From contig JAHEBQ010000010.1 of assembly GCA_024642205.1 (NCBI GenBank), forward strand, positions 1-64,000: 64,000 nt of DNA, read 5' to 3'. This document shows, one piece after another, positions 4,664 through 17,736 of the stretch (its first letter is position 1; each line of letters opens with the position of its first letter). The position numbers and the translations under genes were made by a program. The stretch is from Planctomycetaceae bacterium. GTDB lineage: Bacteria > Planctomycetota > Planctomycetia > Pirellulales > Pirellulaceae. The notes beneath the pieces are model-generated. The model saw nothing but the letters and a program-made list of their open reading frames with translations, did not search any database and was not told the origin of the DNA.

Positions 4664-6421
4664 ATGCGACGAGGAATAGCTGTCTCACCGGGAGTCGCGA
4701 TTGGTACCGCTTACGTGATTCACCAGATTTTCGTAAATCCTGATACCAAGCGCCTCGAAGACTCCGAAATCACCGCCGAACTGGCAAACTACGAGACGGC
4801 TCGTGATAAAGCCGGTGCGGATCTTCGTGCCCTGGAGCGGAAGGTCGAAGCCCAGGTTGGCCACGAGGAAGCCTCCATTTTTGCCGTTCACCAATCTATC
4901 CTTCGGGACGCGGCGTTTACCAACAAGATTCGCAACTGGATCGTCGACGACAAAATGAATGCCGCGGCGGCGCTGCATCGGTTGCTGGGCGAATACACCA
5001 CGTTGTTTGCACGTACCAACGATGAGTATCTGCAGGAACGGTTGAACGACGTTCGCGACGTGATCATCCGATTGGGCGGTCATCTCAACGACGCTCAAAA
5101 ACCGGAAACCGGGTCCATTCATGGCCCGCTGATTGTCGTGGCTGACGAATTGTTGCCATCCCAGGTCGTGGCACTCGGCAACATGGACGTTCACGGGATT
5201 GTCACCCAAAAAGGTAGCCAGACGAGCCACGCGGCGATTGTCGCCCGGTCCCGCGGTATCCCCGCAGTCTCCGGAATCCCGGGAATCATTCGGAGAGTCA
5301 AAACCGGCGACACGATCGTGGTTGATGGCCGAGATGGCCATGTCGAAATCAACCCGAATTCGGAAACACTTAAGGCATTCAAAAAACTCGAACGCGAGTT
5401 CTTCGACCTCAAGGACAAGCTGGCAGCCAATCGTGACATGCCCGCCCTCACGTCTGACAAGTGTGAGTTGCGACTGCAGGGCAACATCAACGGCGTCCCA
5501 GATGCCAAAGCCGCTTGTGCAATGGGCGCTTCGGGAATCGGACTTTATCGGACGGAATACCTTTACCTGACGCACGCCAGCGTTCCCGATGAAGATGAAC
5601 AGTACGAAACCTATCGCGACATCGTTGCCGCCAGCCCCAACCACAACGTGACGATCCGTACGCTCGATATCGGCGGCGACAAAACAGTTGCCTATCTGGG
5701 TCATGACCACAAAGAAGCCAATCCATTCATGGGCTGGCGCAGCATCCGGTTGTCGTTTGAACATCCGGAGTTTTTCAACACCCAAATCCGTGCGATTATT
5801 CGAGCCGCCAGCGAATTTCCGCAAGGCACGGTGCGGTTGATGTTCCCCATGGTAACCACCGTTGAAGAAATTCGAAAACTTCGCAGCATGGTCCGTCGTG
5901 CCTACAAGACACTGAACTCGCGGGGGATCAAGACAAAAGAAGTCCCCATCGGGATGATGCTCGAAGTGCCCGCCGCCGCCGTTTCGATCAGTACCATGAT
6001 CGATCTGGTCGATTTCGTTTCCGTTGGCTCGAACGACCTTGTCCAGTACCTGATGGCTGCCGACCGTGATAATCCAAAGGTTGCGCACCTTTGCCAGCCA
6101 CTTGCGCCGCCGGTCCTAATCGTGCTGAAAAACGTGATTGAAGTCTGCAATCAAGCCAACATTCCGATCACCGTTTGTGGGGAAATGGCGGGAATGCCCC
6201 GGGCGTTTGTGTTGTTATTGGGTATGGGGTTGAGGCGGTTCAGCATGAGCCCGGCGTTTGTACCGTCGATCAAGAAGCTGGCCAGCAAGATTTCGATCGA
6301 AGAGGCGGAAAGAATCGTTACGACCGTGATGGAGTTTAAGACAACCGCCCAGGTCAACAAATTCATGGCTCGTCTGCTCGAACGCATTGCCCCCGACTTG
6401 AAAATGCTTTCGAGCGATTGA
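4664..6421 (+). CDS. ptsI: phosphoenolpyruvate-protein phosphotransferase (PTS enzyme I)
   Basis: Enzyme I autophosphorylates from PEP and passes the phosphate to HPr. It has 585 residues, the usual length. The phospho-accepting His is His189 in GSQTSHAAIVARSRGIPAVSG, the same number as in E. coli. The PEP-binding barrel follows, with GIGLYRTEYL, RTLDIGGDK, SVGSNDLVQY and the late active-site Cys in CGEMAGM. ATG at 4664 has an AGGA-like box upstream. HPr and EII genes are not adjacent, so whether it serves sugar uptake or only regulation cannot be told here. It converges with the GT87 gene only 29 bases downstream. Confidence 0.95.
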   Translation: MRRGIAVSPGVAIGTAYVIHQIFVNPDTKRLEDSEITAELANYETARDKAGADLRALERKVEAQVGHEEASIFAVHQSILRDAAFTNKIRNWIVDDKMNAAAALHRLLGEYTTLFARTNDEYLQERLNDVRDVIIRLGGHLNDAQKPETGSIHGPLIVVADELLPSQVVALGNMDVHGIVTQKGSQTSHAAIVARSRGIPAVSGIPGIIRRVKTGDTIVVDGRDGHVEINPNSETLKAFKKLEREFFDLKDKLAANRDMPALTSDKCELRLQGNINGVPDAKAACAMGASGIGLYRTEYLYLTHASVPDEDEQYETYRDIVAASPNHNVTIRTLDIGGDKTVAYLGHDHKEANPFMGWRSIRLSFEHPEFFNTQIRAIIRAASEFPQGTVRLMFPMVTTVEEIRKLRSMVRRAYKTLNSRGIKTKEVPIGMMLEVPAAAVSISTMIDLVDFVSVGSNDLVQYLMAADRDNPKVAHLCQPLAPPVLIVLKNVIEVCNQANIPITVCGEMAGMPRAFVLLLGMGLRRFSMSPAFVPSIKKLASKISIEEAERIVTTVMEFKTTAQVNKFMARLLERIAPDLKMLSSD

Positions 6422-6450: not shown

Positions 6451-7752
6451 TCAATCGGCAACGCTGTCAGGACATTGCTCGTCGCCTGAGCGATCCCATC
6501 CAAGCAACACCAATGCTGCCGTCATCAAGAAAATGCTGGGCTGGATCTGAATCACAGTCGCGATCTGCGAAAACATGCCCGCCAAAACAAAAATTCCCAA
6601 CCACACAATCCCGAGACTCCGGTCAACCAGGTTGGCCCGCCATGCTCCGGGAGCGAACGTGGAAATAACCAACAACATCGGCAGCAATAACACTGTCAGG
6701 TCGTAGCCATAAAAGTGTGGACTCAGCAGAACCATCGCCACAGACATCGCCGCAAACTGACGGGAGAATCGGGGCGAGCCAGTTTCAATCCTGCCTTGCA
6801 TGACGCGCCACAGCAACCCGACAATCAACAGCGACAACCCGGCAGCAATCATCTTGACACTGCTCGCCGTTAGCCAACCGAAGGTCAACTGCGCGGCCCC
6901 CCAAAGGCTGTTTGAATCGGCCAGCTGATAGCCGCCCGTCTGAACATATTCACCCATTCCCGAAACCACACCCGCGTAGTCGCGAATCAACCGGGGATGA
7001 TTCAACCAGGAACAGCAAAATACAACAACGACGACGGCCAAGGCGCCAAGCGCGAATTTCCACTGACGCTTGAGCAGCATCGTCAGCCCAATCAAAACCC
7101 CCAAATGCGGTTTGAACACGATCAGTCCAAACACTGTCCCCGCCAAAAATGGACGATTCCGGTGTAAGAGCACAAACGTTGCGCTGAGGATCAGCAGCAG
7201 ATACGTCGACTTTTGTCCCATGTTGAAGCAGTTCAACAAAGGCACGAAAACCAGGGAACCGACAAAGCAACGCCCGAAAACCGGCTGACAGGGTGGATAG
7301 TATCGGAACAGCAGGAATCCGCTGATCGAGAACGCCAGTCCGGAAAGTACCGCCCAGATGATGGACGACACCGGATAGCGGAAACGTGACAACGGCCGAA
7401 GCGAAGCATAGTAGAACGGCGGATACACCATCGGAAAGTACTCGTCTTCCGGCCAATCGAATCCGACCATGCTCGAATCATGCTGGAATGCCTGGACGTA
7501 CTCGAGGTCGTAGAGCTTGTTTTCCTCGCCCCGTTCAAACAACTTCGCACCAACCCATTCCTGCAAAAAATCTCCTCCCAGCGGCGACGTTCTCATCCCA
7601 TCAACGGATTTGAAATTTGGAGAAAAGCACAGAACCAGGCCAATGAAAACAAGCGGCAGGGCCAGGATCAACCAGGGAGTTGGGGGCTGTCGTTTCGCCG
7701 GATCAAGATGCTCGGCGAACGCACCTCCCTCAGCGTTTTTCGAATGGTTCAT
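6451..7752 (-). CDS. GT87-family (DUF2029) polytopic membrane glycosyltransferase
   Basis: Membrane protein of 433 residues with about ten hydrophobic segments, for example WLILALPLVFIGLVLCF near the start and LGIVWLGIFVLAGMFSQ near the end. After the first segment comes GGDFLQEWVGAKLF, the pattern with an acidic residue in the first loop that is typical of GT87/DUF2029 proteins. Aromatic loop motifs PMVYPPFYYA and FKPHLGVLIGL also fit. These enzymes usually move sugar from a polyprenyl-phosphate donor. The ATG at 7752 was preferred to a start 95 codons earlier because the extra sequence is low-complexity and runs into the thioredoxin terminator. The acceptor is unknown. Confidence 0.8.
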   Translation of the reverse strand: MNHSKNAEGGAFAEHLDPAKRQPPTPWLILALPLVFIGLVLCFSPNFKSVDGMRTSPLGGDFLQEWVGAKLFERGEENKLYDLEYVQAFQHDSSMVGFDWPEDEYFPMVYPPFYYASLRPLSRFRYPVSSIIWAVLSGLAFSISGFLLFRYYPPCQPVFGRCFVGSLVFVPLLNCFNMGQKSTYLLLILSATFVLLHRNRPFLAGTVFGLIVFKPHLGVLIGLTMLLKRQWKFALGALAVVVVVFCCSWLNHPRLIRDYAGVVSGMGEYVQTGGYQLADSNSLWGAAQLTFGWLTASSVKMIAAGLSLLIVGLLWRVMQGRIETGSPRFSRQFAAMSVAMVLLSPHFYGYDLTVLLLPMLLVISTFAPGAWRANLVDRSLGIVWLGIFVLAGMFSQIATVIQIQPSIFLMTAALVLLGWDRSGDEQCPDSVAD

Positions 7753-7994
7753 TCGCGGGTTCGCTATTGGTTCAAATTTGGCGATCGGGTCGTGCCGCCC
7801 ACAGGATAACCGACGCAAGCACCAAAACGAATGCCGATCTTCGCCCGGAGTATCGCTTGCCCCGCGACGGTTTGAATGGGTTAACGGCCGCGGAACCTGT
7901 GCGTGAGTGCTGTTTCGCCGCAAGAATATCGACGCCAAGAATATCCACGGCCGATGAGCCATTCGCCGCACCAGAAAGAACGGTTCAAATGCGC

Positions 7995-8021
7995 AAAAAA
8001 AACCCCCATCTGAAATGGAGG
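7995..8021 (-). terminator. rho-independent terminator of the thioredoxin gene
   Basis: On the minus strand a 7-bp stem (CCTCCAT with ATGGGGG, one G-T pair) closes a 5-base loop and runs into eight T residues. It starts 32 bases after the thioredoxin stop codon. The rest of the 7753-8052 interval shows no coding sequence that I can support. Confidence 0.75.
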
Positions 8022-8052
8022 CTGGAAATCGTTGCAATTCTGCTGGACGCCG

Positions 8053-8379
8053 TTAGTGAGACGCTCCATGACTGTCGAGAACTTTTTGAAGATCACCTTT
8101 ATCTTTGTAACCCTGAATTCGCTCGACGACCTCACCCGCTTTGAAGACAAGCATGGTTGGGACTGCCGAGATACCGTACTGAACGGCAAGCTCCATGTGG
8201 TCACCCACATTCACTTTGCCGACCCCGGCGTTTCCTGCATTGTCGATCGCAAGTTCATCAATGACTGGACCCAGTCTTTTGCAAGGTGGTCAGCCCTCGG
8301 ACCAGAAATCAACCAGAACAGGTTTTTCAGCACCCAGCACCTCGGTTTCAAATGTCTCTTTTGTAAATTCAACTGCCAT
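8053..8379 (-). CDS. thioredoxin with in-frame TGA (selenocysteine) at the active site
   Basis: Thioredoxin of 108 residues, counting the TGA as a residue. The frame runs from ATG at 8379 to TAA at 8053. The sequence around the active site is VDFWSEG-U-PPCK, where U30 is TGA at 8292-8290 and Cys33 is the resolving Cys. The downstream frame is intact and typical: LGPVIDELA, then the cis-Pro motif ISAVPTMLVF, then the last helix. Standard gene callers split or miss it because of the TGA. A hairpin like a bacterial SECIS follows the TGA, and the gene has a clear promoter and terminator, so it is unlikely to be a decayed pseudogene. Alternatives are a sequencing error at a TGC/TGT codon or a recent nonsense mutation. 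Selenocysteine insertion needs selA, selB, selC and selD elsewhere in the genome. Confidence 0.82.
8263..8292 (-). promoter_or_regulatory. SECIS-like element after the thioredoxin TGA
   Basis: The TGA (8292-8290) is followed, after 13 bases, by a 5-bp perfect stem GACTG/CAGTC (8276-8272 with 8267-8263) closed by a GGTC loop. From the TGA to the GGTC there are exactly 18 bases. From memory, E. coli fdhF also has 18 bases between its UGA and the GGUC apical loop recognised by SelB. An outer GCAA/TTGC pairing may extend the stem. Confidence 0.75.
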
Positions 8380-8486
8380 GATCTCTCCCAAATCTAATGT
8401 GATCGTTACCCAAGCTGAGTCGTATTCCTGTGCTTTATGCCAGGCCAAATTGTATTGCCAATCGCCCACTCATCATTTGCAGTGCG

Positions 8487-8514
8487 ATTTTATCCCTCGA
8501 CACCGGATCGTCAA
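8487..8514 (-). promoter_or_regulatory. sigma-70 type promoter for the thioredoxin gene
   Basis: On the minus strand TTGACG (8514-8509) and TAAAAT (8492-8487) are separated by 16 bases. Transcription would start near 8480, about 100 bases before the thioredoxin ATG. Confidence 0.6.
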
Positions 8515-8652: not shown

Positions 8653-10734
8653 CTACATGGCAAAACTCTGAGCAACCTCCGGGGGTGCCGGGGCATATTC
8701 CATCGGCTCCATCGAACTCCCTGCCCTGCCCTGCGACAACGATCGCATTGCACTGGAATAACCGAACAATTCTGCCAACGGGGCTTGGGCGACAATCGTC
8801 GTTGTTTCGAGATGCGTGTCGGTGCTGACGATCTGTGCCCGGCGTTGAGCCAGGTCACCCACGAATTCGCCGTAATAATCTTCCGGTGTTGTAATCGTCA
8901 GTTTCATGATCGGCTCCAGCAACATCGGTGAAGCAGCGCGTAGGGCCTTTTCAAACGCTTCGCCGGCGGCAATCGAAAACGCCATGGGAGTCGATTCTTC
9001 GGTGGTCTCTGCATCCAACAACGTCACGCGAATTTTTGCCAGGGGAAAGCTGCCGATCGATCCTCCACCCTCGCCGCGAGCCTTGATCTCATCCTTGACG
9101 GATTGAACCATCTCCGCTGGCATCGCATCGACAGGTAGCCGGCTGCGAATTGACACACCTGATTCGACGTTTTCGTCCGGCTCCATTCGAAGTTTGACCT
9201 TGGCGAACAACTGAATGCCGTTGACCAACCGGTGACACTCGCCAGTGACTTCCACTGCCTTGCTGATTGTCTCACGGTAAGAAACGCGGGGCTTGTGCAC
9301 TTTGACGTTGAGGTTGAAATCTCGCAGTAACCGGTTTTTGATGACTTCCAGATGAAGCTCACCCATTCCCGCAATCAACGTCTGTCCGGTGTCTTCGTTT
9401 TCTTTTGCCTTGAAGGTTGGATCCTGTTTCTTGAGCAGTTCGAGAACTTCACCAAGCTTGTTTCGATCGGCTGTCGACTCTGGCTCAATCGCCATTTCGA
9501 TCACCGTTTCCGGAAACTCAATTGGCTCCAGCAGGATCGGTGCCTTTTGGTCGCAGAGCGTATCGCCGGTGACAGCAAACCTGGGTCCGATCACGCCAAC
9601 GATTTCCCCACAGGTAACCTCGTCGAGCTGACCATCTCGCTCTTTTTTGGTCGCGTGGAGCTGCCAGAGCTGGGCCGCGTTTTCTTTTTTGTCCTTCGAC
9701 GGGCAAAAGACACGCGAGTTGCTCTTGAGGGATCCCGAGTAGATTCTGACCCAGTACAGGTCGCCGGTTTTGGCTGGCAAAATCTTGAAAACCAAACCGC
9801 AAAATGGCTCTTCCGGATCCGGCTTGCGAGTTTCCGGTTGATCCGGATCGCGTGGATTGCAGCCGACGACCGGCGGACGATCAAGCGGGCTGGGCAGGTA
9901 GTGCTTCACGCCGTCGAGAACACCCTGCACACCGATGCCGTGAAGTGCAGAGCCGCAAACAACCGGGGTGATCTTGCCTTCAATGGTTGCCTGCCGAACG
10001 GTTTGCCGAATCAGTTCATTAGGGATTGGCTTTCCCTCAAACGCCAGCTCGGTCATCTCGGCGTTGAAATCGTACAGCGCTTCCAGCAGCTGCTCGCGGG
10101 CAAACTGGGATTCGTCTTCCAGCTCGGCCGGGATCGGAGACTCTATCTGTTTCTTGCCTTCGTCTTCGAAAGTTACGAATCGCATCTTCACCAGGTCAAT
10201 CAAACCACGGAAAGGATTGTTGACGTGGGCCGGTCCAAGTCCAACGGGAATCTGAAGTGCAACCGGATTTGCCCCAAGACGATTCTTGATCTCGTTAAAC
10301 ACGCGTTCAAATCCCGCGCCTTCCCGGTCAAGTTTATTGATGAAAGCAATTCGCGGAACACCGTATTTGTTGGCTTGCCGCCAAACAGTTTCGCTTTGCG
10401 CTTCGACCCCCTCGCGGGCACTGAACACGACAACGGCACCATCAAGTACCCTCAGACTGCGCTCCACTTCGGCAGTAAAGTCAACGTGACCCGGCGTGTC
10501 CAACAAGTTGATGTGAACGTCTTTCCAGTCGAATGTCACGCAGGCCGAATAGATCGTGATTCCACGTTCCTGTTCTTCCTGGTCGTCGTCGGTTGTGGTC
10601 GTTCCACTGTCGACCTTACCAACGCGGTGTTTCGCACCACTGAGAAACAACATGCGTTCCGTCACGGTCGTTTTTCCCGCGTCGATGTGCGCGATGATTC
10701 CGATGTTTCGCAGGTTTTGAAGTTTACGAGCCAT
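8653..10734 (-). CDS. fusA: elongation factor G (possibly spdEFG type)
   Basis: Translocase GTPase of 693 residues, the normal EF-G length. G motifs are clear: AHIDAGKTT near residue 17, switch I EQERGITI, DTPGHVDF, and NKLD; domains II to V follow, with the domain IV segment RVSYRETISKAV. The sequence before switch I, GKVDSGTTTTDDDQEEQERGITI, differs from E. coli, and NPVALQIPVGLG followed by FRGLIDL recalls mitochondrial EF-G1 and the spdEFG group known from spirochaetes, planctomycetes and deltaproteobacteria. That subgroup call is inference. It is the last gene after rpsL and rpsG, but a terminator hairpin separates it from rpsG, so it may have its own promoter or depend on read-through. 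Confidence 0.93.
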   Translation of the reverse strand: MARKLQNLRNIGIIAHIDAGKTTVTERMLFLSGAKHRVGKVDSGTTTTDDDQEEQERGITIYSACVTFDWKDVHINLLDTPGHVDFTAEVERSLRVLDGAVVVFSAREGVEAQSETVWRQANKYGVPRIAFINKLDREGAGFERVFNEIKNRLGANPVALQIPVGLGPAHVNNPFRGLIDLVKMRFVTFEDEGKKQIESPIPAELEDESQFAREQLLEALYDFNAEMTELAFEGKPIPNELIRQTVRQATIEGKITPVVCGSALHGIGVQGVLDGVKHYLPSPLDRPPVVGCNPRDPDQPETRKPDPEEPFCGLVFKILPAKTGDLYWVRIYSGSLKSNSRVFCPSKDKKENAAQLWQLHATKKERDGQLDEVTCGEIVGVIGPRFAVTGDTLCDQKAPILLEPIEFPETVIEMAIEPESTADRNKLGEVLELLKKQDPTFKAKENEDTGQTLIAGMGELHLEVIKNRLLRDFNLNVKVHKPRVSYRETISKAVEVTGECHRLVNGIQLFAKVKLRMEPDENVESGVSIRSRLPVDAMPAEMVQSVKDEIKARGEGGGSIGSFPLAKIRVTLLDAETTEESTPMAFSIAAGEAFEKALRAASPMLLEPIMKLTITTPEDYYGEFVGDLAQRRAQIVSTDTHLETTTIVAQAPLAELFGYSSAMRSLSQGRAGSSMEPMEYAPAPPEVAQSFAM

Positions 10735-12129: not shown

Positions 12130-17580
<5,451 letters not shown>

Positions 17581-17736
17581 AAATTCACCTGCTCCTTTTT
17601 TATTTTTGAACCGGGATGTTTTTTGTTTCGGGAAAGCGTATTCAAGCCAGGCTAAGCTTCTGCAACGCAGGCAGGCGTCGTGGTTTGACGCTCCGTCAGG
17701 CAACGCCCTGCGCGTCGCCTGACCAGGTCGGTGGCT

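Follow-up and report, generated by a model that had tools for sequence, protein, structure and literature searches.

A TrxA-type thioredoxin with a predicted active-site selenocysteine in uncultured marine Pirellulaceae

The window, a stretch of 64,000 nucleotides from a draft genome of a Planctomycetaceae bacterium, contains a TrxA-type thioredoxin gene with TGA where the codon for the first active-site Cys would be expected. Sequence comparison suggests, with a probability of about 95%, that this codon is decoded as selenocysteine (Sec) through SelB and a hairpin, and that the protein descends from a Cys-containing ancestor. In the mechanism proposed, SelB carrying Sec-tRNA(Sec) would decode UGA30 after being recruited by a hairpin with a GGUC loop, which is located past the UGA within the coding sequence, and the Sec-tRNA would be supplied through SelA and SelD. 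The product would be a cytosolic TrxA-type thioredoxin with Sec as its nucleophilic active-site residue; the U30 selenolate would attack substrate disulfides, C33 would resolve the mixed selenenyl-sulfide, and thioredoxin reductase would recharge the Sec thioredoxin.

The gene had initially been described as a complete thioredoxin frame in which TGA replaces the first active-site Cys, a description borne out by translation, Pfam and alignment (Table 1). The frame starts with ATG, ends with TAA and has a single internal TGA, codon 30, in the context FWSEG-U-PPCK, which gives the motif G-U-P-P-C. With C substituted at the TGA, residues 3-102 match the Pfam Thioredoxin domain (PF00085) at 2.4e-24, a domain that spans the entire length of the U30 protein, and the match to TIGR01068 reaches 95.3 bits, 1.5 below the curated cut-off of 96.8. 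An automatic pipeline that applies the standard code would stop this thioredoxin at residue 29. As for the clear promoter and terminator that had also been attributed to the gene, a terminator-like hairpin with a T run is indeed present (two such sites in the region, 1.0 expected), whereas the promoter is a weak consensus match and less clear than claimed (one sigma-70-like site found, 0.5 expected by chance).

Table 1. Features of the thioredoxin locus in the window.
Feature	Positions	Strand	Basis or remark
trxA-type thioredoxin gene, 108 residues, U30, GUPPC active site	8053..8379	minus	frame and domain matches
TGA, predicted Sec codon, position of first active-site Cys	8290..8292	minus	alignment with homologues
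TGC codon, resolving Cys33	8281..8283	minus	invariant in 12-row alignment
SECIS-type hairpin GACTG-GGTC-CAGTC, loop 8271-8268	8263..8276	minus	GGTC 18 nt past TGA
GGGAGAG, putative Shine-Dalgarno-like site, immediately 5' of ATG	8383..8389	minus	by eye
Sigma-70-like promoter match, weak	8487..8514	minus	~108 nt 5' of ATG
Terminator-like hairpin and T run	8001..8023	minus	3' of thioredoxin gene
fusA-like (EF-G) gene, upstream, conserved neighbour	8653..10734	minus	synteny
GT87 glycosyltransferase gene, downstream, conserved neighbour, start tentative	6451..7773	minus	synteny
ptsI-like gene, conserved neighbour	4664..6421	plus	synteny

Sec is generally a feature of accessory enzymes. Here the Sec thioredoxin probably serves as the principal TrxA. 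In five genomes of the genus (G007, G008, G017, G018 and G020), which are drafts 91-93% complete so that a gene could be missed in any one of them, no PF00085 match other than the Sec gene (76-79 bits) exceeds 47 bits, and the next matches, at 42-47 bits, belong to frames of 571-582 aa. The top-scoring Cys paralogue of G000 (C151, 93 bits) has the motif WCPPC and an N-terminal CxxC stretch, and we take it to be TrxC-like. Thioredoxin reductase (TIGR01292) is found above the cut-off in six of the eight genomes searched; in G000 it appears as two pieces (281 and 59 bits) below the cut-off, and the same search gave no strong match in G018. A bolder view, to which we would give slightly less than even odds, is that the sole TrxA of the window's clade has become a selenoprotein, not backed up by any Cys TrxA, that core disulfide metabolism is selenium-dependent there, and that Cys, Sec and reverted GCPPC thioredoxins form a natural series within the genus. 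If this is true, such a series would let both the cost and the benefit of Sec be measured, and a Sec-only housekeeping thioredoxin in a marine planctomycete clade would make basic redox metabolism dependent on the availability of selenium. The Cys relatives and the apparent reversions make it possible to test directly what lies behind the gain and loss of Sec.

Selenium-dependent full-length decoding is a general property of UGA/Sec decoding, and the codon could in part be a selenium-sensing switch, with Sec decoded mainly in selenium-replete cells and termination turning the thioredoxin off in all others. The separate Cys TrxC-like protein kept by G000 would fit such an arrangement, but the five close relatives described above have no other strong stand-alone thioredoxin match to serve as a fallback, and the switch seems an unlikely explanation.

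The machinery for Sec decoding of UGA30 is encoded in the same genome, a 6.83-Mb draft of 158 contigs that is 92% complete and carries the window in contig C15. A check for selA, selB, selC and selD, proposed in the initial annotation, located all four above their cut-offs: the tRNA-Sec on C54 (66.7 bits, reported by ARAGORN as tRNA-SeC with anticodon tca), SelB on C9 (380 bits, in a search limited to this genome), SelA on C125 (574.7 bits) and SelD on C148 (354 bits), the last with a TGA of its own in SCAGUAGK. Of the 28 genus members, 24 have tRNA-Sec above the cut-off, 22 SelA and all of them SelD, and each of the 17 genomes found, among the matches listed, to have a TGA thioredoxin has a tRNA-Sec above the cut-off. 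Three of the latter (G002, G003 and G019) have no SelA above the cut-off, perhaps due to assembly gaps. The genus members with no tRNA-Sec above the cut-off (G004, G022, G024 and G027) are drafts 71-88% complete; among the matches listed, the first three have no thioredoxin homologue at 1e-27 and G027 has no TGA in its thioredoxin copies. G027 has SelA and a TGA-bearing SelD, yet no tRNA-Sec above the cut-off. With regard to SelD itself, the best match is a frame of 733-792 aa with no TGA in 24 of the 28 genomes, and a frame carrying one TGA, 367-394 aa long, in G000, G022, G024 and G027.

Bacterial SECIS elements are hairpins situated shortly past the UGA with a G in the apical loop, and the thioredoxin hairpin has this form; its 5-bp stem, its GGTC loop and the 18 nt from TGA to GGTC are as the initial annotation had them. 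Under a strict rule, which demands a stem of at least 5 Watson-Crick pairs and a loop of 4-6 containing GGTC, a hairpin follows 4 of the 2416 TGA trinucleotides on both strands of the window, and the thioredoxin TGA itself is followed by one. Synonymous recoding of the window peptide yields the hairpin in 9990 of 200000 trials (5%), therefore its presence in a single sequence is weak evidence, and it is the conservation that carries weight.

A perfect 5-bp stem with GGTC at the fixed offset is found in 13 of the 17 Sec copies and in none of the 20 Cys copies. The stem is GACTG/CAGTC in 11 Sec copies and AACTG/CAGTT in the two from a second genus (G076 and G178), where the outer pair is A-T versus G-C in the genus of the window, a compensatory change. 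The remaining Sec copies (L032, L034, L039 and L057) form 3-4 pairs with loops AGTC, AGCC or GCTC, and their SECIS is uncertain. Furthermore, in a comparison of five diverged Sec copies (L017, L021, L027, L028 and L059), where an amino acid is shared, the codon is shared too in 38 of 46 comparisons within the hairpin versus 224 of 542 outside, and the top five of 67 five-codon windows by conservation all overlap it. When 42 nt are folded to minimum free energy, the window sequence forms the hairpin; in most Sec relatives it is not the minimum-energy structure under such unconstrained folding, which is why the fixed-register comparison was used instead. The Rfam model RF00031 (SECIS_1) gave no match in the genome and none in any of 14 controls, hence it is uninformative, and in the region Rfam matched nothing but unrelated families, all below threshold, which says nothing on bacterial SECIS. 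L061 (G087) was excluded from the hairpin comparison and from the tree described below.

GGTC hairpins also occur past the TGA of other genes of this genome. The selD gene and three genes for TlpA-like lipoproteins (motifs WUGPC, WUGPC and WUPPC), which were picked because a TGA had already been seen in them and do not constitute a survey, have 6-bp stems with a GGTC loop 31-32 nt past the TGA; in two of the three TlpA-like genes the hairpin is not the minimum-energy structure under unconstrained folding. Since such hairpins follow these TGA codons and are rare after the TGAs of the window, GGTC looks like the loop recognised by the SelB of this organism. These genes also bear on the idea that the TGA is read as some other amino acid, by near-cognate readthrough or under a changed code, with no involvement of selenium. 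The frame is open on both sides of the TGA, as this would require, but tRNA-Sec(TCA), SelA, SelB and SelD are all present, and the TGA, which stands at a Cys position, has a GGTC hairpin after it like those of the four other TGA genes; all this makes such a reading very improbable.

TlpA-like lipoproteins with an in-frame TGA in WUGPC or WUPPC were observed in the genome of the window (L150, L151 and L152, on C115, C149 and C74) and also in G005 (L154) and G017 (L155). All five have GGTC-loop hairpins of 6-8 bp and are candidate selenoproteins beyond thioredoxin. At least one further thioredoxin-fold match with one TGA was present in each of the eight genomes searched, and a lipoprotein-like thioredoxin of G025 (L157, C1:2030574-2030852) has its TGA in WUGPC without a strict-rule GGTC hairpin.

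Relatives of the window's Sec-type thioredoxin were collected from a 147-genome search and a 241-genome family search, nearly all of the genomes compared being drafts. Among the matches listed, a TGA thioredoxin occurs in at least 15 of the 28 genomes of the genus (G000-G003, G006-G008, G015-G020, G023 and G025) and in the two genomes of the second genus, and nine genus members with tRNA-Sec have none (G005, G009-G014, G021 and G026). In a scan of named genomes, codon 30 is TGA at 12 of 79 loci, a Cys codon at 65 and not covered at two; the 12 are from MAGs of Mariniblastus, Pirellulaceae, Planctomycetaceae or Planctomycetota, and several are, judged by their length, the same contigs as loci of the first set. 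In the alignment the UGA pairs with the catalytic Cys of the homologues and forms a UxxC motif, GUPPC and also SUGPC and TUGPC. Alignment with Cys homologues and inspection of related species, both suggested at the outset, showed that in each of the 17 Sec copies found the TGA lines up with the first active-site Cys, and that the TGA and the frame downstream of it are both kept. That the TGA is a nonsense mutation or a sequencing error in a decaying pseudogene, as its meaning of stop in the standard code and the draft state of the genome would allow, can practically be dismissed, because 17 genomes from two genera share this TGA with the frame intact beyond it, the codon in every case occupying the position of the catalytic Cys, and 13 of them have a perfect hairpin, in agreement with the initial judgement that decay was unlikely. 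Several other copies with stops were dropped as Sec candidates: those of G025 and G074 flagged with one TAA and one TAG, respectively, and a second G087 copy flagged with one TGA have Cys at codon 30, as do L104 and L138, in which the stop is elsewhere in the aligned stretch.

The history of the Sec residue was addressed with a maximum-likelihood tree of 37 thioredoxins from which the active-site columns had been deleted. The tree splits 16 WCGPC sequences from a Sec-type clade of 17 Sec and 4 Cys members with support of 97/95, it clusters Sec-type copies regardless of their genomic location, and the Sec/Cys label changes 4 times on it versus 12.5 in shuffles. Most simply, an ordinary Cys thioredoxin would have gained Sec once and then reverted to Cys three times, on a tree whose root is not fixed, several of whose inner branches are weak, and whose starred branches force just two changes. 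The four Cys members of the Sec-type clade have GCPPC and not WCGPC, which fits reversions. L070-L084 were not added to these comparisons, as many of them are, by length, the same contigs as loci of the G-numbered genomes.

The order fusA-trx-GT87 is conserved in nine genomes of the window's clade (L017-L025), and ptsI follows in the window as well as in eight longer named loci (L070-L076 and L078), the two flanking genes being presumably fusA (EF-G) and ptsI. In G076 and G178, the trx gene adjoins ptsI and fabF. In G005, G011, G026 and G027, fusA and ptsI flank a Cys WCGPC trx, and in G010 and G021 such a trx adjoins ptsI. The flanks covered of the Sec-type loci L077, L079-L084 and L162-L164 contain none of the eight neighbour genes tried. 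In addition, G002 and G006 each carry a Sec copy and a WCGPC copy, the latter (L165 and L166) also with none of the eight in the flanks covered. A simple in-place change from Cys to Sec for the whole clade is weakened by these off-locus Sec copies, by the dual copies of G002 and G006, and by the tree. For the window's clade, in which the Sec form occupies the fusA-trx-ptsI locus, the off-locus and dual-type cases leave in-place conversion plausible, not proven, the alternative being duplication and replacement at the fusA-ptsI locus. Among the Sec-type or reverted genes off the fusA locus, L079, L080 and L162 and L081-L084 have shared neighbours, which we take to be FdhD-like (three loci) or glutamate-synthase-subunit-like (four loci). 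Elsewhere in the window, an rpoC-like gene (12130-17703, minus strand, 1857 aa) has a C-terminal extension of approximately four helix-hairpin-helix repeats, with HHH_5 matched in 4 stretches along with DUF4332 and others at about residues 1500-1820.

The Sec-thioredoxin kind itself is established, and what is new here is a well supported branch of it in uncultured marine planctomycetes, with a distinctive distribution and locus history. The primary biochemical paper on Sec-thioredoxin is reportedly that of Kim 2015. Sec-thioredoxin is listed for Geobacter, Anaeromyxobacter, Carboxydothermus and Treponema denticola (PMC1794560) and is placed above the 'predicted' part of tables (PMC9312934, PMC13188914), and thioredoxin is counted among the prominent marine selenoproteins in the Global Ocean Sampling survey, with a UxxC 'Trx-like 1' family of 321 sequences that may well include relatives of the window gene (PMC2398784). 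Planctomycete selenoproteins and sel genes have also been published (PMC4807772). The initial annotation had called Sec in thioredoxin rare and its use in planctomycetes of interest; it is uncommon, but a listed UxxC family and published planctomycete Sec use make a Sec thioredoxin here less surprising. No report of a planctomycete Sec-thioredoxin was found in the titles and the beginnings of abstracts of the papers listed by the literature searches.

To conclude, the window's protein shares with the known Sec-thioredoxin family (UxxC, PF00085) the thioredoxin domain, an in-frame UGA, and Sec, here predicted, as the first active-site residue. It differs from the listed members, going by their descriptions, in its occurrence in Pirellulaceae and in its GUPPC, SUGPC or TUGPC motifs, and it is the only strong stand-alone thioredoxin match in five genomes. 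The WCGPC TrxA of the genus belongs to the same domain family and, in the six genomes with sufficient flanks, to the same fusA/ptsI neighbourhood, but it has Cys in place of Sec, keeps the Trp before the motif, and has no GGTC hairpin. The match of the hairpin to E. coli fdhF in spacing and loop, claimed in the initial annotation, holds against the K-12 record, where the in-frame TGA is codon 140. Both elements lie inside the coding sequence directly past the UGA, with GGTC in the apical loop 18 nt away; the thioredoxin stem is a short, plain one of 5 bp, whereas that of fdhF, which fails the strict hairpin rule, is longer and interrupted.
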